Source: Pilibacter termitis (lineage in GTDB: Bacteria; Bacillota; Bacilli; Lactobacillales; Streptococcaceae). From it: DNA of 37,715 bases. The stretch covers positions 64,521-102,235 of the forward strand of contig NZ_FUXI01000008.1 in assembly GCF_900167335.1 (NCBI RefSeq), in the 5' to 3' direction. Positions 1 to 29,861 of this stretch are shown piece by piece; the stretch's first letter is position 1, and every line of letters starts with the position of its first letter. The notes beneath the pieces are model-generated. The model did no database searches. It worked only from the letters and a program-made list of their open reading frames with translations, and had not been told where the DNA came from. The translations under genes were made by a program, and so were the position numbers.

Positions 1-15
1 ACTACTTCGCTTTTC
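1..15 (-). repeat. Tail of a palindromic repeat unit cut by the window edge
   Basis: The first bases read ACTTCGCTTTTC, the same terminal motif (GAAAAGC on the minus strand) that closes every other unit of the 123-125 bp palindromic family. The array downstream of kdpE therefore continues to the left of the window with at least one more unit. Confidence 0.7.
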
Positions 16-138
16 TTTGTCTAGCTACGTAGTGCTGAATTTTGGTCGCTGTTCGCAGTGCCACCTGAAGCTGTGCTTCAGGCAAGTAAATGGCACGGCT
101 CACTGCGACAAACTCCTAATCGCCCCTCTCCGCTTTTC
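16..138 (-). repeat. Palindromic repeat unit (array unit 1)
   Basis: A 123 bp imperfect palindrome running from TTTGTCTAGCT to GCTTTTC on the plus strand. The apex is CCTGAAGC/GCTTCAGG, the next helix GTGCCA/TGGCAC and the outer helix GTCGC/GCGAC. The unpaired blocks GTTCGCA, AAGTAAA and GGCTCACT are shared with the other units. Orientation is given as the strand on which the unit starts with GAAAAGC, which is the direction of kdpE transcription. Confidence 0.9.
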
Positions 139-262
139 TTTGTCTAGCTACGAAGTGCTGAGGTCTGGTGGTTGTTCGCAATACCGATCGCAACTGGGGT
201 TGCGAGTAAATGAACGGTATGGCTCACTACCACAGACCTCAACCCGCACTTCTTCGCTTTTC
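139..262 (-). repeat. Palindromic repeat unit overlapping the 3' end of kdpE
   Basis: A 124 bp unit with apex CGCAAC/GTTGCG, inner helix ATACCG/CGGTAT and outer arms GAGGTCTG/CAGACCTC. All of these differ from unit 1 but remain self-complementary. On the minus strand its GAAAAGC edge lies inside the last codons of kdpE, so the repeat supplies that protein's C-terminal residues and its stop codon. Confidence 0.9.
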
Positions 263-952
263 CTTTAGCCGATACCCTATGCCGATTTCTGTTATGATGT
301 ATTCTGGTTGTGCGGGATTTGTTTCTATTTTTCTGCGAAGGGCAGACATTAAGGCACGAAGTGCTTGTGTGTCTTCACCATATCCAATGCCCCAGATTTC
401 TTTTATAATCATTTTGGTTGTCAGCACTTTTCCGATATTTTGGAAAAAGAGAGCGAGCAGTTTGTATTCCATAGGAGTTAGGTGAATACTTGAGTTATTG
501 AGAAAAACGAGGTGTTTTTCAAAATCAATGCGAAGATTTCCTACTGCGACAATAGATTTTGTTGTAGTGTTATTTTGCTTTTTCAAATGACGAAGTGCTA
601 CACGAATACGTGCGAGTAGTTCCACCATAGAAAAAGGTTTGGTCAAATAATCATCAGCTCCTGCATCTAAAACTTCCACTTTTTCTTTTTCTTGGTCTCG
701 TGCAGAAATCACAAGGATAGGAATGTCCGACCATTCACGGATTTTGCGAATCACTTCCAAACCGTCCAAATCTGGCAGTCCTAAATCAAGCAAAATCAAG
801 TCAATTTTTTCAGCTACCACTTGCTCCATTGCACTTTTCGCTGTTGAAACAGAGAGATAATGAAATTCCTCTAGCTTGAGTGAATAGCAAATGAAATTTC
901 TAATTTGAGCATCATCCTCGACAATTAGAATAGTTTCTTTCAGCTTACGCAT
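239..952 (-). CDS. kdpE: KdpE-like OmpR-family response regulator
   Basis: A 237-residue response regulator with an N-terminal receiver (acidic pair at 13-14, phospho-acceptor Asp56 in LILLDLGLP, switch Lys in the LTKPF motif) and a C-terminal OmpR/PhoB winged helix. It should bind DNA when phosphorylated by the KdpD-like kinase encoded just upstream. I start it at the ATG at 950-952, which has GGAGG about 8 nt upstream and overlaps the kdpD stop by 8 bp; the reading frame stays open further upstream, but that stretch lies inside kdpD. The last residues, about KRRSAG, and the TGA stop are encoded by a palindromic repeat, so the native C-terminus seems replaced by a few residues. KdpE normally controls the kdpFABC potassium pump, which is not in this window, so the target is unproven. 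Confidence 0.85.
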   Translation of the reverse strand: MRKLKETILIVEDDAQIRNFICYSLKLEEFHYLSVSTAKSAMEQVVAEKIDLILLDLGLPDLDGLEVIRKIREWSDIPILVISARDQEKEKVEVLDAGADDYLTKPFSMVELLARIRVALRHLKKQNNTTTKSIVAVGNLRIDFEKHLVFLNNSSIHLTPMEYKLLALFFQNIGKVLTTKMIIKEIWGIGYGEDTQALRALMSALRRKIETNPAQPEYIITEIGIGYRLKEKRRSAG

Positions 953-2492
953 AATTTTTTTCCTCCATTGGCAATGTAAAAATAATTTCGGCACCTGTAT
1001 GATTTTCTCGATTTCTCGCAAAAATTTCACCACCGTGTGCGTTGACAATACTTTGACAAATCGCTAGTCCAAGTCCTATCCCGCCTTTGTTTTGTGCGGT
1101 ATGAAACATTTCAAAAATATGAGGTAATTCATTTTCCGAAATGCCACGACCTGTATCACTTATGATAAAACAAACGTTTCTTTTTTTCCTATCTTTTTTG
1201 ACAGTAACAAGAATTTCATTGCCAGCTGGTGTATGAGTGATCGCATTGTCCAAAAGATTGATAAGAGCTTGTTCGATGAGTTTTGCATCCATTGGCACAA
1301 GGAGAAGTTCTAAGGGAATGTTAACGCTAAGTTTGTATGGTAAAAGTAGCTTATCCATGCGATTTATCGCACTTCCCACCACTTCCTCGACAGCCTCTAA
1401 TTCCTTGTTTACCAATAATTTCCCCTCCTGTATTCGAGTGAGATTCAAAATATTTTCAACGAGCGAATGTAACCAATTGGCATCTTTGTGAATATTTTGG
1501 AGCAATTCTCGTTCGTCTTCAGACTTCGTCATATCCAAAAGCATTTCCGTTGACCCTAAAACGGACGATAAAGGCGTTCGTATGTCATGTGAAATAGAAC
1601 GCAATAAATTGCTACGAAATCTCTCTTGCGTTACTCTCTCACGTTCTTTTAGGCGAGATTCTGTTGCATAAAAACTTTCCATTGCAAGAGAAATGGTTTC
1701 TATCATGGAAAGAAGTAAATTCATTTGTGCAGAAGAAAGTTTGTTCGCTTTTTCATTTGGCAGACGAAGGACACCAAAAAGATTTTCTCGCCCAACAATC
1801 GCCCAATCGTGAAATTCTTCGCCAAGAATTACTTTTCCTTGAGAGTGGAGCAATTGATTTTGAAGTTTTTCAAGTTGAGACACTCTACGATGTACGATTT
1901 CTCCATTTGGATTTTCTTGGAGGAAAAAATTTTCTAGTTTGTTATCATCATCACAATAAAGAATCCCCACAGAACAACGAAAATAAGTACTTAAAACATG
2001 AACAGAAATACTTGCAATTTCTGGCATTTCACGAGCAATTGTCAGCTGTTTAATCAATTCGTACACCGCTCGACTCTCTGCCTCACGCTCTTTAGCGGAA
2101 AGTGCGTTTTGCAAAGCACGAGTGGTTAAACTACTTGTGATGAGAGCTGTGAGAATCATGATAAATAGCGTAATAATGTAACTTGCCTCATTTACCGCAA
2201 GAGCAAAATAAGGTTTTGTAAAGAAAAAATTAAAGGCAAGTGTTGCCAAAATCGAAGAGGCAATACCAAACAAAAATCCCTCGATTAACCAAGAAGATAG
2301 CACGACTGCCAATAAATAGACAAGCACAATTGTCGCCTCTGGAAATGCTAAACGCTGAAAAACATAGCCAATACTTGAGGCAAGAAAAAGAAACGTCAGC
2401 AATAAAAGCAAATGAATAGCTGTTTTTTGTAATGGTATGTTTTTTTTGGTGAACAAATGAATCTTCCTTTCTAGTTTGCTTTTCTTTTTCAT
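945..2492 (-). CDS. kdpD: Short KdpD-like sensor histidine kinase (no N-terminal KdpD/USP domains)
   Basis: A 515-residue membrane kinase. Residues about 24-125 form the four-helix DUF4118 membrane block typical of KdpD (FNFFFTKPYFAL motif). About 145-275 is a GAF-like region. The H-box SISHDIRTP has His302, followed by N-box (INLLDNA, near 411-417), G1 (DTGRG) and G2 (GIGLGLA) ATPase motifs. Classical KdpD is near 890 residues and carries a KdpD sensor domain and a universal-stress-protein domain before the membrane block; both are missing here and no trace precedes the ATG. The gene overlaps kdpE by 8 bp, so the two are cotranscribed. No strong ribosome site precedes the ATG at 2490-2492, so the start is less certain than the identity. 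Confidence 0.85.
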   Translation of the reverse strand: MKKKSKLERKIHLFTKKNIPLQKTAIHLLLLLTFLFLASSIGYVFQRLAFPEATIVLVYLLAVVLSSWLIEGFLFGIASSILATLAFNFFFTKPYFALAVNEASYIITLFIMILTALITSSLTTRALQNALSAKEREAESRAVYELIKQLTIAREMPEIASISVHVLSTYFRCSVGILYCDDDNKLENFFLQENPNGEIVHRRVSQLEKLQNQLLHSQGKVILGEEFHDWAIVGRENLFGVLRLPNEKANKLSSAQMNLLLSMIETISLAMESFYATESRLKERERVTQERFRSNLLRSISHDIRTPLSSVLGSTEMLLDMTKSEDERELLQNIHKDANWLHSLVENILNLTRIQEGKLLVNKELEAVEEVVGSAINRMDKLLLPYKLSVNIPLELLLVPMDAKLIEQALINLLDNAITHTPAGNEILVTVKKDRKKRNVCFIISDTGRGISENELPHIFEMFHTAQNKGGIGLGLAICQSIVNAHGGEIFARNRENHTGAEIIFTLPMEEKNYA

Positions 2493-2514
2493 GTAAAAAA
2501 TCCATGATTATTCT

Positions 2515-2543
2515 AGCATATTATGTGAAATATAAAAAGACAA
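2515..2543 (-). promoter_or_regulatory. Candidate promoter for kdpDE
   Basis: On the minus strand TTGTCT (2543-2538) is followed after 17 bp by TATGCT (2520-2515), about 23 bp before the kdpD ATG. The spacing is ideal but the -10 hexamer is moderate, and the 5' leader would be very short. Confidence 0.45.
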
Positions 2544-2661
2544 GCGTGATAAAATCAAATATAGAAAGAAAACTCTACAAATATAATAAAAGAATAGCCA
2601 AATAGAGAATTATGGAAAACCTTTCTTTTTTGTAAATTTGACTCGTAGTAGCAAGGTTTTA

Positions 2662-2691
2662 TTGTCTTTTTTGCTTGGTTTCTTATAAAAT
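2662..2691 (+). promoter_or_regulatory. Candidate promoter for ypiAB
   Basis: TTGTCT at 2662-2667 precedes TATAAA at 2684-2689 (16 bp) or TAAAAT at 2686-2691 (18 bp), about 32 bp before the ypiA start codon. Confidence 0.5.
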
Positions 2692-2722
2692 AAAGATATA
2701 CAAAAGAGATAAGGAGTACGAA

Positions 2723-3982
2723 ATGTCACACGCAGTTAAAATGCTAGAAGCACTACACAATCAAGAAATGGAGCTTGCAGAAAAAGAGTTTCATTTAGCA
2801 TTGGAAAAAGAGAAAAACGAAGAACTGTTTTCCCTCGCAATCGAATTACAGAGACTTGGTTTTTTATCAGAGGCAAAACAAACTTTTGAAAAATTATTGC
2901 TTGATTTGAATTATCAAGATGAGGCGAGAATACAGTTAGCTGAAATTTTAGTTGAAGATGATTTGTATGACGAGGCATTTGCACTCTTAGATGAAATCCA
3001 AGAAAATAGTGAGCAATATATTGCACGTTTGCTCGTGGAGGGAGATATTTATCAAATATTAGAATTATCTGAGGTAAGTCTTGCCAAACTGCATAGAGCA
3101 AAAGAATTGGCACCTGATGAGTCGATTATTCGTTTAGCTCTTGCAGAGTTGCTTTTTAGCCTAGGCGAATACAAAAAAGCGGCAAAAGAATATGCCACGC
3201 TTGACCCAATAGAAATAAAAGAGTTGACAAGTATTTCGATTTACGAGCGAATTGGTACAGCGTACTCTCTTTTGGGACGGCTAGAGCAAGCACTCCCGTT
3301 TCTTGAAAAAGCGTTAGAGGAAGACCGTGACAATGAGGAATTGCTTTACAAAATTGGACTTGACGCTTTCTTGATGAAAGATTACGAAACGTCTATTCGT
3401 CACCTTGAGCGTTTGCGTGCGATTAGCGAAGAATTTGAAAATTATCAGCTCATTTTGGCAAAAGCATTGCTAGAAGAAGAACGCACGAACGAAGCATTTG
3501 AAGTGTTAGTCGAGTCTTTACGTTTGAATCCTTATCAAGCTGAAGTTTACCAATTGGCAAGTGCTATTAGTTATCAAAAAGGCGAGGTCAATCAAGCGGA
3601 AGACTATTTACTTCAGGCGATTACGCTTGATGATTTACGAGATGAAAATTTGTATCGCTTGATGAATTTATATTTGGAAGAAAATCGCCTGCAAGATGTG
3701 CTTAGAGCATTTGAGGAGATAGAATTTCAAGAACACGCTCTGGCAAATTGGACAGTTGCAAAAACTTATCGAAAACTTGAGGAAGACGAGAAAGCGGAAA
3801 GTTATTTTGAAACAGCACGACTTGAGCTTTTAGGGGATGCCGAATTTTTAAAAGACTACGCTCTTTATTTGCGAGACAACGGAAAATTATCAAGAGCAGA
3901 AGAATTTTTACAACAAGCAATGGAGGAATTTCCAGAGGATATAGAAATTCACCAACTTGCTGATGAGATAAAGGAGTGGTAG
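2723..3982 (+). CDS. ypiA: YpiA-like tetratricopeptide-repeat protein
   Basis: A 419-residue soluble, acidic protein built almost wholly of TPR-type helical hairpins: repeated patterns of about 34 residues such as LAELLFSLGEYKKAAKEYA, and a C-terminal DYALYLRDNGKLSRAEEFL. There is no signal peptide or membrane segment. I chose the ATG at 2723 because AAGGAG lies 6 nt upstream; the frame is open further upstream but has no ribosome site there. The gene order TPR protein followed by a UPF0302 protein matches ypiA-ypiB of Bacillus and relatives, which is the main basis for the name. The biochemical role is unknown; TPR arrays usually mediate protein-protein contacts. Confidence 0.8.
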   Translation: MSHAVKMLEALHNQEMELAEKEFHLALEKEKNEELFSLAIELQRLGFLSEAKQTFEKLLLDLNYQDEARIQLAEILVEDDLYDEAFALLDEIQENSEQYIARLLVEGDIYQILELSEVSLAKLHRAKELAPDESIIRLALAELLFSLGEYKKAAKEYATLDPIEIKELTSISIYERIGTAYSLLGRLEQALPFLEKALEEDRDNEELLYKIGLDAFLMKDYETSIRHLERLRAISEEFENYQLILAKALLEEERTNEAFEVLVESLRLNPYQAEVYQLASAISYQKGEVNQAEDYLLQAITLDDLRDENLYRLMNLYLEENRLQDVLRAFEEIEFQEHALANWTVAKTYRKLEEDEKAESYFETARLELLGDAEFLKDYALYLRDNGKLSRAEEFLQQAMEEFPEDIEIHQLADEIKEW

Positions 3983-3984
3983 CA

Positions 3985-4515
3985 ATGAGTGTTAAAGAAA
4001 AAAAAGAATTTCTTCGTTGGTTTATTACTCATGCAAAATTTTCAAGACGAGAAATTTATTGGATTATCAACTATCTTGAAAGTCATGAGTCGATTTTAGA
4101 AAATGTGCATTTTGTGGAACACGCAAATAAAACACCACGTGGGATTTTATTTGCCACGACAGAACAGGAATTTAGCAAACAAATTGTACTTTTCAAGGAT
4201 AAACAAGAATTTTTAGATGTCGATCAAATTTTCCATGAAATCCGCCTAAACTGGCGAGAAAATTTGTATATTGAAGTGCTTTTTGAAAATGCGTGGAGCA
4301 ATGAAAAATACCTCAAAGTCTTAGAAGATAATCCATTTTCTTCATGGAACGAAGAAGTAGACGAGGAAATCTCAGAAGAAATCGAGCATTATTTCTCCGA
4401 ACAAGAAGTTCTTGCCAAAAAACAACTCCTCTACGACAAAATCAACGAGGCGTTGGATAAGGGCGATGAGCAAGAGTTTCAAAAACTTTCTCATGAGCTA
4501 CAAGAGATGAATTAA
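3985..4515 (+). CDS. ypiB: UPF0302/YpiB family protein with C-terminal IDEAL domain
   Basis: A 176-residue protein of the UPF0302 (YpiB) family. The N-terminal domain opens KEKKEFLRWFITHAKFSRRE and the C-terminal about 37 residues (KINEALDKGDEQEFQKLSHE) fit the short IDEAL helix-turn motif found at the ends of several Firmicutes proteins. It starts 2 nt after the ypiA stop. The Shine-Dalgarno AAGGAG (3971-3976), inside the end of ypiA, favours the ATG at 3985 over an in-frame GTG at 3976. The pair is clearly translated from one message that ends at the hairpin just downstream. Its cellular role is not established. Confidence 0.85.
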   Translation: MSVKEKKEFLRWFITHAKFSRREIYWIINYLESHESILENVHFVEHANKTPRGILFATTEQEFSKQIVLFKDKQEFLDVDQIFHEIRLNWRENLYIEVLFENAWSNEKYLKVLEDNPFSSWNEEVDEEISEEIEHYFSEQEVLAKKQLLYDKINEALDKGDEQEFQKLSHELQEMN

Positions 4516-4517
4516 TA

Positions 4518-4556
4518 ACAAAAGCCACTTGCATAAACGAGTGGTTTTTGTCTTGT
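4518..4556 (+). terminator. Intrinsic terminator after ypiB, usable in both directions
   Basis: A 12 bp stem ACAAAAGCCACT/AGTGGTTTTTGT with one G-U pair and an 10 nt loop. T-rich and A-rich flanks let it serve ypiB and the converging minus-strand gene at 4573. Confidence 0.75.
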
Positions 4557-4572
4557 GAAAAACGTATTTTTA

Positions 4573-4917
4573 TTAATGTTCGCCTTGAATCATCTCCACA
4601 CGATAAGCAATCATTTTTTCAATTAATGCAATCGGTAATTCTCGACTTTCTGGCAATTGTACCGCACCTTTTGAAGTTTTATACTCACTCAACTCTTCTT
4701 GAAATTTCGTGATAACGTTAGGTGTCGGGTAAAAACCAATATGTTTTTTACAGGGAGCAAAGTAAAAAATGGGTTTTTGATTTAACTTAAAGCATGGCAT
4801 ATTGTAGCTAATGCACTCCGTAACATTTGGCAAAGAACGACCTAATTTTGCCAAAGCGAATAAACGCTCTTGTCTATCAACAGGCTGTTGTAAAATAAAT
4901 TGTTCAATTTCGTTCAA
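4573..4917 (-). CDS. YdhG-like DUF1801 protein (frataxin-like fold)
   Basis: A 114-residue small soluble protein. The core NMPCFKLNQKPIFYFAPCKKHIGFYP is cut here to its hallmarks: a cysteine-containing YNMPCFKL strand and HIGFYP, both typical of the DUF1801/YdhG family, members of which in Bacillus have been described as frataxin-like iron chaperones. The start codon is TTG at 4915-4917, preceded at 8 nt by a near-perfect AAAGGAGGT; no ATG lies in frame with a ribosome site. It stands alone, convergent with ypiAB and divergent from the VanR-like gene. A role in iron handling is inferred from the family only. Confidence 0.75.
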   Translation of the reverse strand: MNEIEQFILQQPVDRQERLFALAKLGRSLPNVTECISYNMPCFKLNQKPIFYFAPCKKHIGFYPTPNVITKFQEELSEYKTSKGAVQLPESRELPIALIEKMIAYRVEMIQGEH

Positions 4918-5020
4918 ATGTTTTACCTCCTTTAAATTGTACCTTTATTATACATGAGTATAGGATTAAAAAGACAAAGTAGCACCAAAATTTGACTTGG
5001 AAAATGAAGTTTTTACCATA

Positions 5021-5063
5021 TTAAGAATTATTTAAGAAAATAAAGCATTTTTCTGGTTATAAT
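5021..5063 (+). promoter_or_regulatory. Promoter with two direct repeats ahead of the VanR-like gene
   Basis: TTAAGAA occurs at 5021-5027 and again at 5032-5038, an 11 bp period as in OmpR/PhoB-type boxes. A TATAAT -10 follows at 5058-5063 with no good -35, so the repeats lie where a phosphorylated regulator would contact polymerase. This suggests autoregulation. A similar 11-bp-spaced pair lies ahead of dltX. Confidence 0.55.
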
Positions 5064-5104
5064 AGAGTATGAGCAAAAAAATTTTTTAGAAAGAGAATAG
5101 TATA

Positions 5105-5809
5105 ATGGATATAAAAATTTTAGTAGCAGATGATGATGAGGCGATTCGTACTGGAGTGAAAATTTATCTCAAACAGGCGGGATTTGTTGTTTACGAGGCT
5201 GAAAATGGTCTTGAGGCATTAGAAAAAATTAAACAGGAGAAGTTTCAGCTGTTAATTTTGGATATTATGATGCCGAAAATGGACGGTTTTGCAGTTTCCG
5301 AAAGATTGCGTAGCGAGGGGAATAATATCCCGATTTTGATGCTCTCAGCGAAATCAGAAGAAGCAGACAAAGTAAACGGGTTAATGCTTGGGGCAGATGA
5401 CTATTTGACCAAACCTTTTTCACCAGTAGAACTAGTCGCACGTGTGAAAAGTATGCTGAGAAGATTTATGGATTTAGGAAAATATACAAATTCTGAAGAG
5501 GCGGTGTTGACGCTTGGTGGCTTGGTGTTAGATGAGAAAAAACGTACGATTTCTGTTGACGGAGAAATACGAAAAATGACACCTAAAGAGTATCAAATTA
5601 CAGAATTGATGATGAAAAATGTCGGCAAAGTGTTTTCGATAGATGAAATTTACGAGGCAGTTTGGCACGAGTCAAGTCTTGGTATGGCGGATAATACGGT
5701 GAGCGTGCATATTCGCAAAATACGTGAAAAAATCGAGGCAAATCCGAAAGAACCGAAATATTTAAAGGTGGTGTGGGGCGTTGGTTACAAAATGGAAGAC
5801 TCTATTTAA
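5105..5809 (+). CDS. VanR/OmpR-type response regulator
   Basis: A 234-residue regulator with receiver domain (acidic triplet at 9-11, phospho-acceptor Asp53 in LILDIMMPKMDG, TKPFSP switch) and OmpR-type winged helix ending in VVWGVGYKMED. The sequence falls in the VanR-like branch common in Gram-positive bacteria; nothing nearby suggests glycopeptide resistance genes, so no van name is given. It overlaps the kinase gene by about 29 bp if the TTG start of the latter is right, so the two form an operon. Direct repeats at 5021-5038 suggest it activates its own promoter, and a similar box before dltX makes the D-alanylation operon a candidate target. Confidence 0.85.
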   Translation: MDIKILVADDDEAIRTGVKIYLKQAGFVVYEAENGLEALEKIKQEKFQLLILDIMMPKMDGFAVSERLRSEGNNIPILMLSAKSEEADKVNGLMLGADDYLTKPFSPVELVARVKSMLRRFMDLGKYTNSEEAVLTLGGLVLDEKKRTISVDGEIRKMTPKEYQITELMMKNVGKVFSIDEIYEAVWHESSLGMADNTVSVHIRKIREKIEANPKEPKYLKVVWGVGYKMEDSI

Positions 5810-8139: not shown

Positions 8140-8264
8140 GAAAAGCGAAGAGGGGCGTTCAGGAGTTTGTCGTAGTGAGCCACAGCATTTATTTACTGGA
8201 AACGAAGTTTCCAGTGCTGTTGCGAACAGCGACGCAACTCCTGCCCCTCACAGCTAGACACAAA
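8140..8264 (+). repeat. Palindromic repeat unit (single copy)
   Basis: A complete unit from GAAAAGC to CTAGACA, with apex CTGGAAAC/GTTTCCAG, inner helix ACAGCA/TGCTGT and outer arms GAGGGGC/GCCCCTC. It lies after the terminator of the VanRS-like operon, in the same direction as that operon, and immediately before the ribosome site of the DUF1294 gene. Confidence 0.9.
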
Positions 8265-8600: not shown

Positions 8601-8622
8601 AACTTTTTAGAGGTACCCTTAT
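8601..8622 (+). repeat. Remnant end of the MITE-like family upstream of clpB
   Basis: AACTTTTTAGAGGTACCCTT matches the right terminus of the full element at 16651-16815 (AGTTTTTAGAGGCACCCTTA). It lies in the clpB 5' leader, 25 bp before the start codon. Only one end is recognisable. Confidence 0.55.
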
Positions 8623-16655: not shown

Positions 16656-16815
16656 GGGTACCTCTAAAAACTCCACTTAAGACTAAATTAGCTAGTTTTT
16701 CGATTTTCGAGGAAATCGACGAAAGCTATGTGGTTCATAGGTTGAGGAGATTGACGAAGAAAATTGGAAAACTAGCAATTTAGGATAAGTGCGAGTTTTT
16801 AGAGGCACCCTTAAA
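16651..16815. mobile_element. MITE-like element within the dlt operon
   Basis: A 165 bp element without coding capacity. Its ends are inverted repeats of about 45 bp: left TTTAAGGGTACCTCTAAAAA continuing to a CTAAATT/GCTAGTTTTTC block, and right, read inversely, TTTAAGGGTGCCTCTAAAAA with the same continuation, differing at a few positions. The interior holds a small hairpin (TCGATTT/AAATCGA). No clear target duplication is visible. Four partial copies occur elsewhere in the window. It fills almost the whole dltX-dltA gap and would fold into a long hairpin in the dlt mRNA. Confidence 0.8.
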
Positions 16816-18359: not shown

Positions 18360-19546
18360 TGTTTATGATTCCGTATGAAACACCGTACTATTTCGTGTTT
18401 TTAGCGATTTTACTAATTCCATATGTTGTTATGATGCTACTAGGCAAAAGAATGGTTTGGTATCAAACGCTGATTACGCTGTTTTTCCTGTATATCAGCT
18501 TTGCAGGACCTCACATTCAACAAGGAATTGCGTTAATTCTCTATCTCATATGGCAAACAGTACTCATCATGAGCTATCTCGGGTATCGCAAGCGAAAAAA
18601 CAGTGGCGTTGTCTTTTATTTAGCAGTCGTTCTTGCGATTTTACCACTTGCAATTAGTAAAATTTTTCCGATTTTGCATATTGCGGACACATTGTTTGCA
18701 TTCTTAGGAATTTCTTATTTGACGTTCAAGTCAGTGCAAATGATTATGGAAACAAGAGACGGGTTGATAAAAGAAATCAATGTTTTTCATTTACTGCAAT
18801 TTCTCGTCTTTTTCCCAACAATTTCATCGGGACCGATTGACAGATTTCGCCGTTTTGAAAAAGAGCTGAATGCACCTGTTGAACGTGTAAAATATATCGA
18901 ACTCTTAGATAAAGGAACGTTTTATATTTTCCTAGGTTTCTTGTATAATTTTTTGATTTCGTATATTATCAATTGGAAATTGATGCCTCATTTGCAAGGA
19001 AATCTCTTGCTAACAGGTAGTTTAAAAGATTTACTTCTTTATATGTACGCCTATGGATTTAATTTGTTCTTTAACTTTGCAGGATATAGTTTGTTTGCAG
19101 TAGGGACAAGTTATTTGCTTGGCTACGAAACACCAATGAATTTCCATTATCCGTTTCGTGCAGAAAGTATCAAGGATTTCTGGAATAGATGGCATATGTC
19201 ACTTTCGTTTTGGTTTAGAGATTATGTTTATATGCGGTTAACTTATTTGATGGTGAAAAAACGTTGGTTTAAAAATAGAGTAACGGTGAGTAATTTATCG
19301 TATTTAGGGCTATTTTTACTCATGGGCTTATGGCATGGGTTAACATGGTACTACGTTGCCTACGGTTTATATCACGCAACGCTTATCATTATCAATGACG
19401 CATGGATTCGTTATAAAAAGAAACGAAAAGACAAATTACCAAGCAACCTCCTCACACGTGGACTCTCAATTTTCATCACATTCCACGCAGTAATGCTCGG
19501 TTTCCTAATCTTTTCAGGAATACTAGACAAACTATGGTTCAAATAG
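18359..19546 (+). CDS. dltB: DltB, MBOAT-family D-alanyl transferase
   Basis: A 395-residue polytopic membrane protein of the MBOAT family, moving D-alanine from DltC across the membrane step towards DltX/DltD and teichoic acid. The conserved block FWNRWHMSLSFWFRDYVY and the catalytic histidine (His326 in MGLWHGLTW) are present, with about eleven hydrophobic segments. The start overlaps the dltA stop. Its TAG stop shares its last G with the GAAAAGC edge of a palindromic repeat, so the repeat array begins exactly at the stop codon and separates dltB from dltC by about 500 bp. That is unusual, because dltB and dltC are normally adjacent or overlapping. Confidence 0.96.
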   Translation: MFMIPYETPYYFVFLAILLIPYVVMMLLGKRMVWYQTLITLFFLYISFAGPHIQQGIALILYLIWQTVLIMSYLGYRKRKNSGVVFYLAVVLAILPLAISKIFPILHIADTLFAFLGISYLTFKSVQMIMETRDGLIKEINVFHLLQFLVFFPTISSGPIDRFRRFEKELNAPVERVKYIELLDKGTFYIFLGFLYNFLISYIINWKLMPHLQGNLLLTGSLKDLLLYMYAYGFNLFFNFAGYSLFAVGTSYLLGYETPMNFHYPFRAESIKDFWNRWHMSLSFWFRDYVYMRLTYLMVKKRWFKNRVTVSNLSYLGLFLLMGLWHGLTWYYVAYGLYHATLIIINDAWIRYKKKRKDKLPSNLLTRGLSIFITFHAVMLGFLIFSGILDKLWFK

Positions 19547-19668
19547 AAAAGCTACGAGGGGCGTTCAGGGGTTTGTCGCAGTGAGCCACAGCATTTACTT
19601 GCTGGAAACGTAGTTTCCAGTGCTGTTGCGAACAGCGACCCAACCCTTGCCCCTCATAGCTAGACAAA
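19546..19668 (+). repeat. Palindromic repeat unit in the dlt operon (a)
   Basis: A 123 bp unit: outer arms GAGGGGC/GCCCCTC, inner helix ACAGCA/TGCTGT, apex CTGGAAAC/GTTTCCAG. The first base is the last base of the dltB stop codon. Confidence 0.92.
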
Positions 19669-19790
19669 GAAAAGCGAGAGGGGCGTTCAGGGGTTTGTCG
19701 CAGTGAGCCACAGCATTTACTTGCTGGAAACGTAGTTTCCAGTGCTGTTGCGAACAGCGACCGAACCCCTGTCCCTCACAGCTAGACAAA
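19669..19790 (+). repeat. Palindromic repeat unit in the dlt operon (b)
   Basis: A 122 bp tandem neighbour, nearly identical to unit (a) and therefore probably a recent duplication. Small differences lie in the right outer arm (CGACCGAACCCC instead of CGACCCAACCCT). Confidence 0.92.
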
Positions 19791-19914
19791 GAAAAGCTAC
19801 GAGGGGCGTTTTGAAGTCTGTGGCAGTGAGCCGTGTCGTTTACTTGCTAGAAACGCAAGTTTCAAGCGGCACTGCGAACAGCCACCAGACTTCAGCCCCT
19901 CACAGCTAGACAAA
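19791..19914 (+). repeat. Palindromic repeat unit in the dlt operon (c), variant arms
   Basis: A 124 bp unit with changed but still paired arms: GAAGTCTGTGGC against GCCACCAGACTTC, and apex GAAAC/GTTTC. The unpaired blocks match the other units. The paired changes relative to units (a) and (b) are part of the covariation evidence. Confidence 0.92.
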
Positions 19915-19965
19915 GAAAAGCTACGAGGGGCGTTCGGGGGTTTGTCGCAGTGAGCCACGTCGTTC
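19915..19965 (+). repeat. Half repeat unit ending before dltC
   Basis: Only the left half is present (GAAAAGC to GCCACGTCGTT). The sequence then leaves the repeat pattern (CAATGTTTATC). The half unit at 25662-25713 stops at the same internal position. The remaining 83 bp to dltC are AT-rich and hold its ribosome site. Confidence 0.8.
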
Positions 19966-20048
19966 AATGTTTATCAAAGTAAACAACACTCAAATTTTTG
20001 TGCAAAAAAATAAAAACAATTTTAACTAAGGAAAGGAAGAATTTAAGT

Positions 20049-22613: not shown

Positions 22614-22631
22614 AGGTGTCCTATAAGAGAT

Positions 22632-22665
22632 GAGCTAGAGAACTCCCGCCTCTAGCTTGTTTTGA
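22632..22665 (+). terminator. Terminator between the TPR gene and the ferredoxin gene
   Basis: The stem GAGCTAGAG/CTCTAGCTT with an 8-9 nt loop is followed by TGTTTTGATTTTG. It overlaps the last codons of the convergent ferredoxin gene. Confidence 0.7.
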
Positions 22666-22870: not shown

Positions 22871-22955
22871 TTCATTCTCGCTTTCGTTGACACCAAATTT
22901 CTTTTCTTCCAAAAAAGAAGAAAAGATAAAGTGGTGGTAAATCGTATGTAGATTG

Positions 22956-22984
22956 ATTATAATAAACAAGGACAACTTTATCAA
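22956..22984 (-). promoter_or_regulatory. Promoter for the ferredoxin gene
   Basis: On the minus strand TTGATA (22984-22979), 17 bp, TATAAT (22961-22956). The AT palindrome at the -10 also gives a TATAAT on the plus strand (22958-22963), possibly used by the divergent hemG-like gene, though no good -35 exists for it. Confidence 0.65.
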
Positions 22985-23010
22985 TAGTAAAAATGAAGGG
23001 GAATTTTTAA

Positions 23011-23541: not shown

Positions 23542-23559
23542 AGGAAAGGGAAGTAAGAC

Positions 23560-24399: not shown

Positions 24400-25079
24400 A
24401 AAAGAAGTTTTTAGAGAAAAATTTTGATGTAAAAGTCTATAATCTTGAGCAAAAAACACCGTATGTCGTGCTAATTCACGGTATTTGGGGAACGCACAAA
24501 GATTTATCATTTGTCAAAGAGCGACTACTTCCCAAGAAATTCCGCATTATCAGTATTCAATATCCGAGCGTTGAAAAAATTGAGACGATTGTGCAGAAAT
24601 ATATCGCTCCAACGCTTGAGAAGCTTGATAGTGATGTACCTATTCATTTTGTCGTTCATTCCATGGGGGCGGTAGTGTTGCGTTATTATTTGGCAAATTT
24701 TGCCGAACAAACAGGAAAAGTAATCATGATTGCTCCAGCAAATCAAGGAAGTGATTTAGTGAGCATGGTTCCAAAACGACCGCTTTCTCTTATTCTAGGT
24801 GAGGCTATGTTTCAGCTAAAGAAAAATGGTGCGTGGATGAACGAACTTCCGTATTTGAAAAAAGATACTTTTATTTTCATGGGGAATCGCTCGAATAATT
24901 TTTTGTATTCCTTGTTTATCAAAGGGGAAGATGACGGCATGATTGCAGTTGAAAGTGCAAAAATGGGAGGATTTCCTGTGGAAATAATAGACGGTCAAAC
25001 GCATACCTCGATTTTGAAAAATGAAGAAGTGTTGTTAGAAATTGAAAAACTATTAATGAAAAATGGAGTCGGAGAATGA
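24396..25079 (+). CDS. Lipase/esterase-like alpha/beta hydrolase (intact copy)
   Basis: A 227-residue alpha/beta hydrolase. IHGIWG (28-32) forms the oxyanion region, [11 protein letters not shown] holds the nucleophile Ser89 in a VHSMG elbow (the first Gly of the usual GxSxG is Val), and the likely acid is in [11 protein letters not shown] and the base in GQTHTSIL. There is no signal peptide. It overlaps thyA by 4 nt and the following membrane-protein gene by 4 nt, so translation is coupled. The substrate is unknown. About 300 bp of its coding sequence recur almost unchanged in the broken copy downstream. Confidence 0.85.
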
Positions 25080-25672
25080 CAAAGGAAAACTATTTAGAAA
25101 TGTATCGTGAGGATTTATTGCGAAATCAAGCGAGAGTGACTTCGGTGTTGTTGGAAAATGGTTATTATATTCAGTGGAAGAAAGTGAGTATTTACATTGT
25201 TTATTGTCTAACTATCTCTGTTGCCTGTATATATTTTAGCAATCTTTATCCGAGTTTATTCGCTATCTTTTTTTCTATGCTTGGAATATTAGTAGGGAAT
25301 TTTATTCTTGTAGCAATTAGGTTGAAAATTATTTACAACTATCGTAAGAAAATCAAAGAAAGTTATTCAGAATTTGTTGAAGAGCACTTGAAATTGGCAA
25401 CGGCTATTTCAGGAAGTAGAAAAGTAGTGGCAGAAGATGAGGAAACTTTTACAATTGAAGGATTTGTTAGAATTGGAAAAGGAAAGTTTGAAGAAAGAAA
25501 AATTACTCTGTCTAAAAAACAATACTTACTCAAGGAAAATTCTGTAAATGAAGATCTTTTATTTACCATTTCAATGGGCTATTTTTCACAAAGGAAAAGA
25601 AAAAGGAAGGCACCTTTAATTCATTACAGAAATAAAAAAGACGAAACGTTTTACGAAGACAGAAAAGCGTAG
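25076..25672 (+). CDS. Two-helix membrane protein, paralogue 1
   Basis: A 198-residue protein of unknown family. The N-terminal NYLEMYREDLLRNQ is followed by two membrane helices (about 36-55 and 60-82), then a cytosolic or surface domain of about 110 residues. It is homologous over its whole length to the product of 26119-26715 (shared YSE-V-E and K-NSVNE blocks). The start overlaps the lipase stop. The last three codons and the TAG stop are formed by the edge of a palindromic repeat (GAAAAGCGTAG), so its C-terminus has been remade by the repeat. Function unknown; it always travels here with the lipase gene. Confidence 0.7.
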   Translation: MTKENYLEMYREDLLRNQARVTSVLLENGYYIQWKKVSIYIVYCLTISVACIYFSNLYPSLFAIFFSMLGILVGNFILVAIRLKIIYNYRKKIKESYSEFVEEHLKLATAISGSRKVVAEDEETFTIEGFVRIGKGKFEERKITLSKKQYLLKENSVNEDLLFTISMGYFSQRKRKRKAPLIHYRNKKDETFYEDRKA

Positions 25673-25713
25673 AGGGGCGTTTTGAAGTCTGTGGCAGTGA
25701 GCCGTGTCGTTTA
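25662..25713 (+). repeat. Half repeat unit at the duplication junction
   Basis: The left half of a palindromic unit (GAAAAGC ... GTGAGCCGTGTCGTTTA), matching the arm variant of dlt unit (c). It stops at GTCGTT, as does the half unit before dltC, and passes directly into lipase coding sequence. Lipase copy 1 has TGTCGTTCATTCC at the matching place, so repeat and gene share a short homology at the joint. Confidence 0.88.
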
Positions 25714-26122
25714 TTCCATGGGGGCGGTAGTGTTGCGTTATTATTTGGCAAATTTTGCCGAACAAACAGGAAAAGTAATTATGATTGCTCCAGCAAATCA
25801 AGGAAGTGATTTAGTGAGCATTGTTCCAAAACGACCGTTTTCTCTTATTCTAGGTGAGGCTATGTTTCAGCTAAAGAAAAATGGTGTGTGGATGAACGGA
25901 CTGCCGTATTTGAAAAAAGATACCTTTATTTTTATGGGAAATCGCTCGAATAATTTTTTGTATTCCTTGTTTATCAAAGGGGAAGATGACGGCATGATTG
26001 CAGTTGAAAGTGCAAAAATGTCTGACGTTTCGTTTCAGATAGTCCATGGGGAAAATCATGTATCTATTTTAAAAAATAAAAAAGTTATTAGTGAAATCGA
26101 AAAGATTTTGGAGGACAAATGA
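25714..26122 (+). pseudogene. 5'-truncated mosaic second lipase copy
   Basis: The reading frame begins at the codon matching the Ser elbow of the intact lipase (VVYSMG here, VVHSMG there) and lacks the first 85-88 residues, including the oxyanion loop. From 25714 to about 26018 it is almost identical to copy 1 (about five amino-acid changes in about 107); after AVESAKM the two diverge sharply, although Asp and His equivalents remain (GENHVSIL). A TTG in the repeat at 25682 would give a hybrid product, but no active hydrolase is expected. The end overlaps the next gene by 4 nt, preserving the operon arrangement. Confidence 0.8.
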
Positions 26123-26715
26123 ATAAAAAAGAATATTTATTGACATTTGAAGAAGATTTATTAGCCAATCAAGAACAAATTACAAATGAAGTAATTTCAT
26201 TTTTGAAAAAGAGAGTACGACTTAACTTTATTGTAGGCATAATTGTATTTATTTTATCTGTAGTGGCGGAAATTTTGTTTTACTTGGAAGGCAATGATTT
26301 TCTTTTGGGGCTATATGTGGTTTGTGATGTTATCCTATTTTTCGGTGTTTTGTTAGTAGTGCAACAGTTAAACAAGCAAAAAAAGAAACTCAAAACAAAC
26401 TATTCTGAATACGTAAAGGAAAATGTTGAAACACTTTCTTTTACATCTAGTCAAACGAAACTATTGAAAGAAGATGCAGAGGCTTACGTCCTTGAAATAT
26501 TTGTGAGAGCAAATAAAAATACAATAACGAAGAAAATTTTTACATTACCAAAAGAAGCATATTTGATCAAAGGAAATTCAGTAAATGAAAAATTCATATT
26601 TTACCTTTCGCTTGCTAGTTATAAGAGATTATGGAGTAACGTTCCAGCCATTCTTTTTACGTATAGGTATAAAGAAAATGGAGAACTTTTCATATTAAAA
26701 AAGGAGGGGGAGTAA
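26119..26715 (+). CDS. Two-helix membrane protein, paralogue 2
   Basis: A 198-residue paralogue of the product of 25076-25672, with the same length, the same N-terminal plan (KEYLLTFEEDLLANQEQ), two membrane helices (about 33-52 and 59-81), the YSEYVKEN block and a KGNSVNEKF motif. Divergence is much greater than in the lipase patch, so the two pairs are an old duplication with a later local exchange in the lipase part. Translation is coupled to the broken lipase frame (4 nt overlap) and to folA (TAATG). Function unknown. Confidence 0.7.
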   Translation: MNKKEYLLTFEEDLLANQEQITNEVISFLKKRVRLNFIVGIIVFILSVVAEILFYLEGNDFLLGLYVVCDVILFFGVLLVVQQLNKQKKKLKTNYSEYVKENVETLSFTSSQTKLLKEDAEAYVLEIFVRANKNTITKKIFTLPKEAYLIKGNSVNEKFIFYLSLASYKRLWSNVPAILFTYRYKENGELFILKKEGE

Positions 26716-27212
26716 TGTTAACAGCAATTTGGGCAGAAGATAAAAATGGTTTAATAGGGAAGAACAATCAACTTCCTTGGCATTTGCCGAATGATTTACA
26801 ATTTTTTAAGGAAAAAACGCTAGGAAACACCATAGTAATGGGGCGAGAAACTTATGAGGGAATGGGCAAACGTCCTTTGCCGAATCGCCAAACAATTGTG
26901 CTGACAAGAAATGCTGACTATAATTCAGAGCATGAAAATGTGCTTGTGATGAATAGTGTGGACGAAGTAATGGAGTATGCAAAAAATAGTGAAACGCTAG
27001 TCATGATTACAGGCGGTGCAACGGTGTATAAGGCATTTGAGCCTTATATGACTACACTTTATCGAACGGTAGTGCAAGAAGAATTTGAGGGGGATACTTA
27101 TTTTCCAGAATGGGATTTTTCCCACTTTGAATTAGTAGAAACAATTGAGGGAATAGTAGATGAAAAAAATAAATATCCTCATGTTTTTGAACGGTGGGAA
27201 AGTGTAAAATAG
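26715..27212 (+). CDS. folA: Dihydrofolate reductase
   Basis: A 165-residue DHFR, target of trimethoprim; it reduces dihydrofolate made by ThyA. Seen: AIWAEDKNGLIGKNNQLPWHLPNDL, here quoted for its hallmarks GLIG, LPWHLP and the acidic Asp of NDLQFF; TIVMGRETYE (NADPH binding); ITGGATVY; and a C-terminal HVFERW. The length is normal, with no sign of a resistance-type variant that I can judge. The start overlaps the previous stop and has a strong AAGGAGGGGG. Separation of thyA and folA by the lipase/membrane modules is unusual; they are often adjacent. Confidence 0.95.
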   Translation: MLTAIWAEDKNGLIGKNNQLPWHLPNDLQFFKEKTLGNTIVMGRETYEGMGKRPLPNRQTIVLTRNADYNSEHENVLVMNSVDEVMEYAKNSETLVMITGGATVYKAFEPYMTTLYRTVVQEEFEGDTYFPEWDFSHFELVETIEGIVDEKNKYPHVFERWESVK

Positions 27213-27216
27213 CATA

Positions 27217-27275
27217 TGGTCATCTCTAAAAACTCGCACTTCTTCTAAATTGCTATTTTTTAGAGTTGCCCATAA
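27217..27275. repeat. Short internally deleted copy of the MITE-like family
   Basis: TGGTCATCTCTAAAAACTCG begins a left end that matches the full element through CTAAATTGCTA, and TTTTTTAGAGTTGCCCA is a right end in inverse orientation. The interior is missing, leaving about 59 bp that can form a hairpin between folA and the acetyltransferase gene. No other terminator follows folA. Confidence 0.7.
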
Positions 27276-27289
27276 GAAAGAGGTAGCTT

Positions 27290-27769
27290 ATGAGAACGAT
27301 TAGAATGGTTGAACCACAAGATTATGCACAACTGATGAAGATTGAGAATGAAATTTGGACGAATGACAATTCTCCTGTTTTGCATTGGTATGAAAATGTT
27401 GAGGAATTTCAAGAAAAAATGCAGAATGCGACAATTGTTGTCGCACTTGAAAATGAAAAAATACTAGGTTTCTTGAATTTATCTCAAATGAGCAAACTTG
27501 AAAGCAATCGCTTTTCTATGTTGATTGGCATTGGTGTGGCGAAAAACGCTCAATCTAGCGGTGTAGGAAGGAATTTGATAAGCTGGGTGAAAGAATACGC
27601 ACGAGAACATGGAAAGCATAAGATTGGTTTACGTGTACTTTCGACCAATGAAAAAGCCATTCGTTTTTACGAAAAAAACGGGTTTATTGAAGAAGGACGA
27701 TTGAGAGATGAATTTTTCATTGACGGAAAATTTGTTGATGATGTATTTATGGCTTGTTTTTTAGAATAG
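27290..27769 (+). CDS. GNAT-family N-acetyltransferase
   Basis: A 159-residue GCN5-type acetyltransferase. Motif A is seen as IGVAKNAQSSGVGRNLISW (acetyl-CoA pyrophosphate loop, Q-x-x-G-x-G variant QSSGVG), followed by LRVLSTNEKAIRFYEKNGF (motif B) and an RDEFFIDGKFVDDVFM end, close to the RimI/ribosomal-protein or spermidine-acetyltransferase-like group. The substrate is not determinable. The ATG follows AGAGGT by 6 nt; a MITE remnant lies directly upstream. Confidence 0.88.
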   Translation: MRTIRMVEPQDYAQLMKIENEIWTNDNSPVLHWYENVEEFQEKMQNATIVVALENEKILGFLNLSQMSKLESNRFSMLIGIGVAKNAQSSGVGRNLISWVKEYAREHGKHKIGLRVLSTNEKAIRFYEKNGFIEEGRLRDEFFIDGKFVDDVFMACFLE

Positions 27770-27784
27770 AATAGTAGAGGGAAA

Positions 27785-28666
27785 ATGAAAATATATTATC
27801 CGAAAAATGAAAAGAAAGTTTGGAAAAAACTTATTGCGACACCGTTATTTGAGCAAGTTTTTGCCTATCTTCTTTCGCATGAAAATGTGATTTTAAGGGA
27901 GTTAAAGCAAAAATTTCCAGAGAAGAATTTTGAGAAATTATTGGACGAAATGATTACGCTTGGCATAGTAATTCGAGAAAATCGCAGGTATAGAGTAGGT
28001 GTTCAACTGCTGGAGGAGTTGCCAAAATTTGATGTGGTCGAGCATGATTTTTTACAAGGTTATACGCAGGAGGAAGTAAGTTGCGGTTGGCATTTGTTTT
28101 TGCAGACGATTGAGTTTGATGTGGAAACTCCATTGTTTGTGAAAAATTTTACTCCGCTTGCTCTCGCACTTGAGAAACTTCCGCTTGCTCAAGAGTTGCT
28201 AGATGAAAAAAGTCAACTTCATTTTTGTTCTTTTAGCACGATTGGGCTTGATAAAGGTACGATTTCAGATTATTTTCAGAAGCTGAGTGAAAATAGTAGA
28301 TTGAGCGGCGAAGAAATGGAGATTTATTCATTGTTAGGCGATGTTAACCCGAGTTATGCAATGCGTGCGTTTTCGATATATTTGTTGAAATTCTTAGAGA
28401 ATACTTCGTTGGAAAAAAGACGTGAGGACATATTTTTGGATGCTTTGGTGCATTTTAATGTGTTAAGGCAAAAAAAGACAACGTATTTTTTAAATGTTCC
28501 TTTTTACCAAAAAGAGTGTGGTCAAGAAGTCTTAGGCTTGCTCAAGGAAAATTTCCCAGAAGTTACAAGAATAGAAGATTTTTTGAAACTATCGGAGTAT
28601 TTTGCTAGGTATTCTCAAAAAATCAAAGAAAATTTTATAAGTTTGGAGCGAAAAGATGAAAAATAA
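27785..28666 (+). CDS. DUF1803-like protein of unknown function
   Basis: A 293-residue soluble protein. The first 80 residues (KIYYPKNEKKVWKKLI ... VILRELKQKFPEKNFEKLLDEM) look like a winged-helix region and recall the DUF1803 proteins of streptococci and enterococci; I am not certain of that match. The rest is helical and acidic, without catalytic motifs that I recognise. It starts 15 bp after the acetyltransferase and overlaps the MazG-like gene by 11 bp, so the three are probably one operon. Confidence 0.6.
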   Translation: MKIYYPKNEKKVWKKLIATPLFEQVFAYLLSHENVILRELKQKFPEKNFEKLLDEMITLGIVIRENRRYRVGVQLLEELPKFDVVEHDFLQGYTQEEVSCGWHLFLQTIEFDVETPLFVKNFTPLALALEKLPLAQELLDEKSQLHFCSFSTIGLDKGTISDYFQKLSENSRLSGEEMEIYSLLGDVNPSYAMRAFSIYLLKFLENTSLEKRREDIFLDALVHFNVLRQKKTTYFLNVPFYQKECGQEVLGLLKENFPEVTRIEDFLKLSEYFARYSQKIKENFISLERKDEK

Positions 28667-28955
28667 CATCATGCAGGAGATTGAACAATTTATCACAGAC
28701 CGCAATTGGCGACAAAATCATAACGCGAAAGATTTGGCAGTTGCGATTTCGATTGAGTCAGGCGAGCTTTTGGAGGATTTTCTATGGCTTTCTGCCGAGG
28801 AGGGCTTGGCGAGAAATATGGAAAACATCAAGGAGGAGTTGGCGGATGTGCTGATTTATGCTTATCAGTTGGCAAGTTTGCTTGATTTGGATGTAGAGGA
28901 GATTATGCGAGAGAAAATAGCGAAAAATGCGTTAAAATATCCGATTGAGAAGTGA
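28656..28955 (+). CDS. MazG-like nucleotide pyrophosphohydrolase
   Basis: A 99-residue all-alpha NTP pyrophosphohydrolase. The metal-binding pattern is visible: ISIESGELLEDFLW (E-x-x-E type) followed by EELADVLIYAYQLA (E-x-x-D). Such proteins hydrolyse (deoxy)nucleoside triphosphates to monophosphates, cleaning the nucleotide pool; the specificity here is unknown. The ATG lies inside the end of the previous gene with GGAGCG upstream. The ssrA promoter follows 17 bp after the stop. Confidence 0.85.
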   Translation: MKNNIMQEIEQFITDRNWRQNHNAKDLAVAISIESGELLEDFLWLSAEEGLARNMENIKEELADVLIYAYQLASLLDLDVEEIMREKIAKNALKYPIEK

Positions 28956-28971
28956 TTTTCCAAAAAAACAC

Positions 28972-28999
28972 TTGCATTTTTCAAAAAATCTGATATACT
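28972..28999 (+). promoter_or_regulatory. ssrA promoter with extended -10
   Basis: TTGCAT (28972-28977), 16 bp, TATACT (28994-28999) preceded by TG-A, giving an extended -10 (TGATATACT). Confidence 0.75.
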
Positions 29000-29002
29000 A
29001 AA

Positions 29003-29033
29003 GTTCCTACCTTTTGAAGTAGGAACCTTTTTT
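29003..29033 (+). terminator. Terminator-like hairpin between the ssrA promoter and mature tmRNA
   Basis: GTTCCTAC/GTAGGAAC (8 bp perfect stem, 8 nt loop) is followed by CTTTTTT. Its left arm coincides with the predicted ssrA transcription start, so it may stop read-through from the MazG-like operon while being incomplete in RNA started at the ssrA promoter. Confidence 0.65.
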
Positions 29034-29035
29034 AA

Positions 29036-29394
29036 GGGGTTGTTACGGATTCGACAGGTGTAGTTTGAGCAGGGATTGCGCTTCGCAGGTTACGTCTGCG
29101 TTAAAACGTTACAGTTAAATATAACTGCAAAACAAAACAATTCTTACGCTTTAGCTGCCTAAAAAACAGCGGGCGTGAGCGTCTTGGTGTCGCCCATGCA
29201 CTCAAGTAACGCTCTCATTTCAGTGGGATACGATAAATTTTTCCGTCTGCAAAATTTATAAGAGATCATCAGACTGGCAATTTGGAACGCGAGTTTTGCC
29301 GCGACCCAAATTGTAAGAAAAAATAGCAAGACTATGAGCGTAGATATGTTTGTGGCAATATGCTTGGACGCGGGTTCAATTCCCGCCAGCTCCA
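29036..29394 (+). ncRNA. ssrA: Transfer-messenger RNA (tmRNA)
   Basis: The 5' end GGGGTTGTTACGGATTCGAC and the 3' end GACGCGGGTTCAATTCCCGC-CAGCTCCA form the tRNA-like part: acceptor GGGGTTG/CAGCTCC with G-U pairs, and a T-arm with GGTTCAA. The CCA tail is not encoded after the discriminator A at 29394. The tag frame starts at the resume codon GCA (29127) and ends with TAA (29160-29162), encoding AKQNNSYALAA, whose YALAA end is the usual degradation signal. tmRNA with SmpB rescues stalled ribosomes. The mature RNA is about 359 nt. A terminator follows closely. Confidence 0.97.
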
Positions 29395-29401
29395 TTTTGA
29401 G

Positions 29402-29442
29402 AAACTCCTTGAGCCTTTTGATTGGTTTAGGGAGTTTTTTTT
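29402..29442 (+). terminator. Intrinsic terminator of ssrA
   Basis: A 14 bp stem AAACTCCTTGAGCC/GGTTTAGGGAGTTT with G-U pairs is followed by TTTTTT. Confidence 0.9.
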
Positions 29443-29496
29443 ATTTGGGTAATGAGTGTGATTTTTTCAGATTTTTTGTTTTATTCAATCTTTAAT

Positions 29497-29611
29497 AACT
29501 ACGAGGAGCAGGAGTTTGGCAACTGTTCGCAATGTCGAACGCAACTAATGTTGCGATTAAATAAACGACATGGCTACTGTTGCAAACTCCTGACCGCCCT
29601 CTCCGCTTTTC
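29497..29611 (-). repeat. Palindromic repeat unit (outermost of the phoR array)
   Basis: About 115 bp, lacking the usual TTTGTCTAGCT edge. Arms GGAGTTTGGCAAC/GTTGCAAACTCC, inner helix ATGTCG/CGACAT and apex CGCAAC/GTTGCG are all paired yet different from the neighbouring units. Confidence 0.88.
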
Positions 29612-29736
29612 GTTTTGTCTAGCTCCGAAGTGCTGAAGTTTGGTCGCTGTTCGCAACAGCACTGGAAACTACGTTTCCAGCAAGTAAATGCTGTGTCTCA
29701 CTGCGACAAACTTCACCCCGCCCTTCTCCGCTTTTC
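29612..29736 (-). repeat. Palindromic repeat unit (middle of the phoR array)
   Basis: A 125 bp unit: outer arms GAAGTTTGGTCGC/GCGACAAACTTC, inner helix ACAGCA/TGCTGT, apex CTGGAAAC/GTTTCCAG. Confidence 0.92.
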
Positions 29737-29861
29737 GTTTTGTCTAGCTCCGAAGTGCAGAAGTTTGGTCGCTGTTCGCAACAGCACTGGAAACTACGTT
29801 TCCAGCAAGTAAATGCTGTGGCTCACTGCGACAAACTTCACCCCGCCCTTCTCCGCTTTTC
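29737..29861 (-). repeat. Palindromic repeat unit abutting the phoR stop codon
   Basis: A 125 bp unit almost identical to its neighbour, hence a recent tandem copy. On the minus strand phoR ends TAA, then one C, then GAAAAGC of this unit. Confidence 0.92.

Follow-up and report, generated by a model that had tools for sequence, protein, structure and literature searches.

Hairpin repeats of about 123 bp with a maintained sense-strand fold, placed sense-wise in the gene spacers of Pilibacter termitis

A 37,715-nucleotide stretch of the Pilibacter termitis genome (contig NZ_FUXI01000008.1, positions 64,521 to 102,235; hereafter the window) carries copies of a palindromic repeat of about 123 bp, standing singly or in head-to-tail arrays. 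A fold of the sense strand of this repeat is maintained, as RNA or as single-stranded DNA, since compensatory changes occur and G.U pairs are far commoner than A.C mismatches. In the Pilibacter genome the repeat lies sense-wise in gene spacers, mostly just past a stop codon or a short way upstream of a start codon; close species differ in their arrays by entire units, and within its order the family has a patchy distribution. We tentatively regard it, at slightly less than an even chance, as a mobile non-coding element whose folded single strand is what spreads and inserts, in the sense direction, into DNA that is transcribed but not translated. The strongest competing view is that the host selects for mRNA hairpins past stop codons.

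Each unit forms one long imperfect hairpin, whose sense strand runs from GAAAAGC to CTAGACAAAG. An outer stem leads to inner helices in which an A.A mismatch and a tandem G.A pair interrupt the regular pairing; a one-sided bulge of 8 bases (TTTAYTTR) lies at the top, and the apical stem has 8 pairs closed by a loop of 3-4 bases. The folding energy of one unit is -61.1 kcal/mol (z -8.6). The blocks that an earlier, sequence-only reading of the window had listed as constant coincide with the ends of the unit, with the bulge and with the tandem-G.A region. A survey of 87 stretches selected for holding copies (727,377 bases of the 2.79 Mb genome) gave 403 units in 160 arrays of 1 to 8 units, namely 318 full units, 38 with a nested insert and 47 partial ones, with some arrays split and some units cut by N runs and stretch borders. 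In a genome-wide model search at least 150 matches were obtained, all 150 scored candidates being matched. The clean alignment consists of 316 units, with 87 of the 403 left out.

Covariation was scored in an alignment (A1) of 82 diverse units, built by MAFFT without structure, against 500 shuffles; the 40-pair structure was taken from the same sequences, which favours the real arms over slid versions of them. Paired cells amount to 96.0%, against 83.1% (sd 0.3) in the shuffles, and pairing falls to 34-41% when the arms are slid by 1-3 columns. Both sides are changed at 28 of the 40 pairs (21.3 when shuffled), doubly changed cells number 509 (169 when shuffled) and the covariation score is 0.427 (0.182 when shuffled), while one of the five measures is unremarkable: 64 further pair types against 61.3, matched by 60 of the 500 shuffles. 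Several pairs show three or four Watson-Crick types, e.g., columns 32-93, 46-79, and 59-74. Among 63 diverged copies from 13 other genomes, in an alignment fitted to the structure and therefore favouring it, 89.8% of the cells are paired, against 56.3% when shuffled, and changes on both sides are found at 39 of the 40 pairs. The sequence-only reading had proposed that the arms covary with pairing kept, and had read this as selection on a folded RNA, or on a hairpin recognised in its DNA form, rather than mere decay of repeats. With many more copies the arms neither pair at chance level nor decay independently, so the covariation supports this proposal, and decay of chance palindromes is rejected.

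Two further features of the hairpin stand apart from these tests. First, the bulge bases at A1 columns 53 and 56 covary, reading C..G in 174 and T..A in 140 of the 316 clean units, with one C..A and one unmatched exception; being two apart, they can form no pair in an ordinary hairpin, and perhaps reflect a tight turn or contact of one unit with another. Second, the 38 long units (e.g., L061:4015-4195 and L038:4481-4660) carry a nested insert of 59 bases, itself a hairpin, always at the same apical point and in units with different outer arms; 33 of these inserts have a mean identity of 98%, and they are reminiscent of the inner boxB modules of BOX.

Which strand is folded was judged from single differences between the 100 closest copy pairs (at least 95% identical), the direction of change being assumed and not polarised. 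At paired columns these differences are GC/GU in 56 cases, GC/AC in 6, AU/GU in 17, AU/AC in 8 and other mismatches in 41. G.U thus exceeds A.C by 73 to 14 (p = 9e-11 if the differences are independent; such values are indicative, because the copies share ancestry). The excess is also seen over all 316 clean units (GU 254, AC 113; 199 and 111 after dropping the dominant pair 34-91) and in the relatives' copies (GU 127, AC 34). Unpaired columns show strand-symmetric differences, with A/G at 78 of 5562 letters and C/T at 49 of 3166, and this control excludes a mutational strand bias as the cause.

The nine units that the sequence-only reading had placed in the window lie where it put them to within a few bases, and its two half units are likewise present; what it called a tail is taken to be the first 15 bases of another unit, at the left edge of the window. 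The sense orientation is minus at 1-262 and 29497-29861, and plus at 8140-8264, 19546-19968 and 25662-25717.

1..15, minus strand: 5′ fragment of a further unit, the array tail; beyond the last unit the sense strand continues as AAGAAAAGCGAAGTAGT
16..138, minus strand: full unit (profile 1-120), a row in the 82-unit alignment A1
139..262, minus strand: full unit (profile 1-120), also a row in the 82-unit alignment A1
8140..8264, plus strand: single full unit, about 21 bases upstream of the start of an 82-aa open reading frame (ORF) that precedes clpB
19546..19668, plus strand: full unit, overlapping the dltB stop codon by a single base (its own first, the codon's last)
19669..19790, plus strand: full unit in the dltB-dltC spacer
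19791..19914, plus strand: full unit in the dltB-dltC spacer
19915..19968, plus strand: 3′-truncated last unit (model 1-53), ending at the apical bulge
25662..25717, plus strand: 3′-truncated single unit (model 1-55), at a tandem duplication junction
29497..29611, minus strand: nearly full unit (model positions 1-115 of 120), last of its array
29612..29736, minus strand: full unit
29737..29861, minus strand: full unit, beginning 1-2 bases past the stop of a PnpS/PhoR-like histidine kinase gene
29863-31620, minus strand: the PnpS/PhoR-like histidine kinase gene

The dltB-dltC spacer is filled by one array of three and a half units. Over the survey, 117 of the 160 arrays were scored for gene context, 43 being dropped at stretch ends, at N runs or where no gene stood on one side; 21 of those scored are borne by a second repeat, MITE-B (MITE, miniature inverted-repeat transposable element), and the other 96 lie outside it. 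Seventy-five of the 96 lie between two genes of the element's own strand and two are antisense to both neighbours; 12 follow a same-strand gene and face an opposite one, and seven precede a same-strand gene. Consequently, 94 have at least one neighbour on their strand and 77 stand between co-directional genes. Counting as near a gene any array within 15 nt after a same-strand stop (or overlapping the gene end) or within 35 nt before a same-strand start, 83 of the 96 qualify, whereas uniform insertion gives 33% in the same spacers and 19% in array-free spacers.

MITE-B served as a yardstick for these biases. It is palindromic, about 156 bp long, with ends GGGYACCTCTAAAAACTC, and its copy in the window has TTAA on both flanks:

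16656..16810, plus strand: MITE-B palindromic repeat, empty of hairpin units; the units of filled copies sit at the point 16740/16741

Motifs like MITE-B ends also occur near window positions 8601, 11327, 27218, and 27254. The surveyed stretches contain 32 two-armed copies, 21 of which carry hairpin units, and these units always sit at the same internal position; the first 32 stretches account for 6 empty and 11 filled copies. An empty CATAG^GTTGAGG corresponds to a filled CATAG-AAAAGC...CTAGACAAG-GTTGAGG, a net gain of 122 bp for one unit, although the left junction is somewhat changed in five filled copies; the comparison is compatible with a 2-bp AG target duplication or with none. The 21 MITE-B-borne arrays fall into orientation classes of 6, 6, 5 and 4, without preference. 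MITE-B copies overall have both neighbours on the same strand in nine cases and both on the opposite strand in six, against the arrays' 75:2 (p = 2e-4), and their outer ends are near genes in 14 of 31 cases, against 83 of 96 (p = 1e-5). The strand rule is special to the hairpin arrays, nearness to genes only in part. Another control, in which only 1 of the 21 MITE-B-borne arrays lay near a gene, was discarded as unfair, because the MITE-B arms of 70-85 bp hold the unit away from genes.

Array content points to turnover. All 318 full units share their array's direction. Adjacent units have a mean identity of 0.783 (162 pairs, 18 of them at 0.95 or more), hardly above the 0.762 between different arrays, so tandem duplication is rejected as the only source of arrays; the best match lies in another array for 166 of the 256 units of multi-unit arrays. 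With N runs and contig ends set aside by eye, truncation on the 3′ side affects 17 units, all of them in last (or sole) position in their arrays, against at most four truncated on the 5′ side; of 100 arrays whose last unit is full, 25 run on for at least six bases into a next unit (nine bases in 13). The unit period varies from 122 to 125, which keeps no reading frame, and a mechanical ORF listing has short ORFs over units. Two close genomes, G019 and G026, are 96% identical at two compared loci, and six of their orthologous arrays were compared in alignments judged by eye. Two full units and a fragment in G019 stand against the fragment alone in G026 at two loci, and at a third there are three units against two; the fourth has its units reordered, the fifth has an internal deletion and the sixth is alike. 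In all six arrays the last full unit is trailed by a 5′ fragment.

Beyond Pilibacter, searches with a model of the repeat (R2) matched at least 13 of 335 genomes of the family, own genome included (6 of 10 genera), and at least three further genomes among 395 of the order, one of them weakly (E 0.007); among 398 of the class, with up to 8 candidates per genome scored, the own genome alone matched. The bacterial family in question is probably Streptococcaceae, judging from the nearest relatives of ClpB, in a Lactobacillales MAG (77%) and a Streptococcaceae MAG (73%). Since no more than 8-10 candidates per genome were scored, under strict filters, absence from a genome is soft. Scans of genomic and viral contigs for exact patterns gave no match (own-genome records may be excluded), and blastn against plasmids and phages gave nothing useful. 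One relative, G069, has its one detected copy in the 16S-23S rRNA spacer (L087:2306-2429 = L069:1501-1624), on the rRNA strand and 62 bases upstream of the 23S match.

The empty and filled MITE-B copies, the best matches across arrays, the unit differences between G019 and G026 and the patchy spread together suggest mobility. In the mechanism that we infer, the repeat would spread as a folded single strand, either single-stranded DNA or RNA, and a putative trans-acting enzyme would recognise the conserved apical bulge and stem. Entry would take place on the non-template strand, in transcribed DNA free of ribosomes, which would jointly explain the one-strand pairing, the sense orientation, the adjacency to stops and the rRNA-spacer copy. 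Arrays would then grow and turn over by recombination between units, leaving the host with a string of mRNA hairpins between cistrons, whose effects on message stability or translation would be side effects, perhaps sometimes useful. That the repeat stands for a new class of mobile element, in which a folded single strand with a fixed 5′ end and a ragged 3′ end is inserted, often at stop codons, into ribosome-free non-template DNA without a reverse transcriptase or a Y1 transposase, is a far bolder claim and rather improbable.

Several observations weigh against spread as a folded strand. First, all filled MITE-B copies share one point and may descend from a single insertion, and units may have been lost from MITE-B rather than gained. 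Second, the 14 of 31 MITE-B copies near genes exceed the uniform expectations, which makes gene nearness partly a general trait of repeats here. Third, genes were called by a simple custom caller with at least one wrong call, a spurious 78-aa ORF over the tmRNA gene that was used in scoring the array 29497-29860. Fourth, GC skew agrees with array direction in 81 of the 96 arrays, so replication strand could still be involved; the 15 discordant arrays comprise five between two same-strand genes, five same/opposite, three opposite/same and two antisense to both, and replication direction is weakly disfavoured as the cause. Fifth, the sense bias in the 13 other genomes (51 arrays; 28 same/same, 12 opposite/opposite, 6 and 5 mixed; p = 0.017) is significantly weaker than here, and two genera have antisense copies at a like locus (L082:5134-5257 and L088:4940-5062), with an 80-aa ORF on one side and ORFs of about 250 and 737 aa on the other. 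Finally, no autonomous copy was seen, no insertion sequence survey having been made, and neither the Y1 transposase (PF01797; no match in the 98.67% complete genome, controls matching in 5 of 14) nor reverse transcriptase (PF00078, RVT_1) has a match in the own genome, G000. On the former result, mobilisation by RAYT is rejected. PF00078 occurs in 2 of 26 genomes, G006 and G015, both carriers of the repeat.

Selection by the host is the first alternative to be weighed. Arrays past stop codons would act on the message, as a brake on terminating ribosomes, a block to 3′-5′ exonucleases or an RNase III site, and sense copies would be kept where they are useful. Indeed, 58 of the 96 arrays start within 15 nt past a same-strand stop or overlap the gene end, pairing is kept with G.U tolerated, arrays occupy the same loci in G019 and G026, and ribosome stalling is reported for E. 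coli REPs that lie at most 15 nt from a stop (PMC12306157). However, units borne by MITE-B in any orientation have no more broken pairs than the others (0.94 per unit in 31 units against 1.39 in 236), so pairing seems independent of location in a transcript, though these copies may be young; moreover, the loci number more than a hundred, and array content turns over between close species. Overall, this explanation is rather unlikely, yet a serious one.

Less probable still, and improbable on balance, is an ordinary MITE moved by a DDE transposase, in which template switching at the palindrome, or gene conversion from one arm to the other, would produce the covariation and a purine-rich target site the orientation. 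The unit, a hairpin of about 123 bp, is short and palindromic as MITEs are, the possible 2-bp AG duplication would suit such an element, and the arm alternatives are discrete with few intermediates. Correction between arms, however, is blind to the strand, yet G.U prevails over A.C by 73 to 14; a target-context matrix favours sense over antisense by 2.3:1 only, against the observed 75:2, which rejects the purine-rich target as the cause of the bias; and MITE-B in the same genome lacks such a strand bias. Retroposition, in which a transcript, perhaps circular, is copied into head-to-tail concatemers with a fixed 5′ and a ragged 3′ end, would fit the 3′-side cuts and the trailing starts of next units, but it is very improbable, given that neighbouring units differ as much (0.78) as units across arrays (0.76) and that reverse transcription is rejected for want of a reverse transcriptase match in the genome.

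We place the family among the bacterial palindromic interspersed repeats, and not in BOX, REP or bcr. The sequence-only reading had not recognised it as a named one, and no Rfam match to it was found: at gathering scores the window matched tmRNA and M-box alone, and six relatives' loci (E<=1) matched rRNA and tRNA alone. No described family of this kind turned up in the literature, in which subscription papers were mostly outside reach. An intrinsic terminator is not indicated either, no T run following the unit in 39 listed 3′ ends. Integron attC arrays are also head-to-tail imperfect hairpins, active as one folded strand; the likeness is in layout only, with no cassettes between the units here. 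REP/BIME elements of E. coli are likewise palindromes but are tied to RAYT (Y1) transposases, whereas the present unit is 123 bp long, is found without a Y1 match and keeps its array's direction in all 318 full units. REPs are 20-40 bp long (PMC3733652), and some of them lie at most 15 nt from a stop codon (446 of 4,072; PMC12306157).

In organisation, BOX of Streptococcus pneumoniae is the closest known system. BOX elements are modular palindromic repeats (86 in Table 1) that vary in how many inner modules they have; they can be co-transcribed with operons, are placed on the leading strand in 60.8%, which mirrors coding bias only, and are over-represented between convergent genes (PMC3049150). 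Compared by positional features only, the present arrays differ in that 94 of 96 have a same-strand neighbour and 77 of 96 stand between co-directional genes. The bcr1-bcr18 repeats of the Bacillus cereus group are hairpin repeats in untranslated regions and operon spacers, some MITE-like and some RNA-like (PMC3446304); as far as that description goes, head-to-tail arrays, the sense rule and the one-strand G.U signature set the present family apart from them.

The covariation is unusually clean for a bacterial repeat, with several hundred units, 13 other genomes and a yardstick repeat in the same genome. Two questions thereby become testable: whether repeats of this sort persist as RNA of the host or as selfish strands, and whether transcription and the sites where ribosomes stop can guide small elements in their insertion. 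Strings of strong hairpins in operons, three and a half between dltB and dltC and up to eight elsewhere, also matter for reading expression in these bacteria.

Two observations concern the window itself. A 300-bp stretch at 24650-24949 is duplicated at 25705-26004 with 97% identity, and the junction lies within the half unit 25662-25717, at the shared stretch GTCGTTYATTCC, so this unit seems to have acted as a breakpoint. The window also contains a tmRNA gene at 29036-29397 and an M-box riboswitch at 34634-34797.

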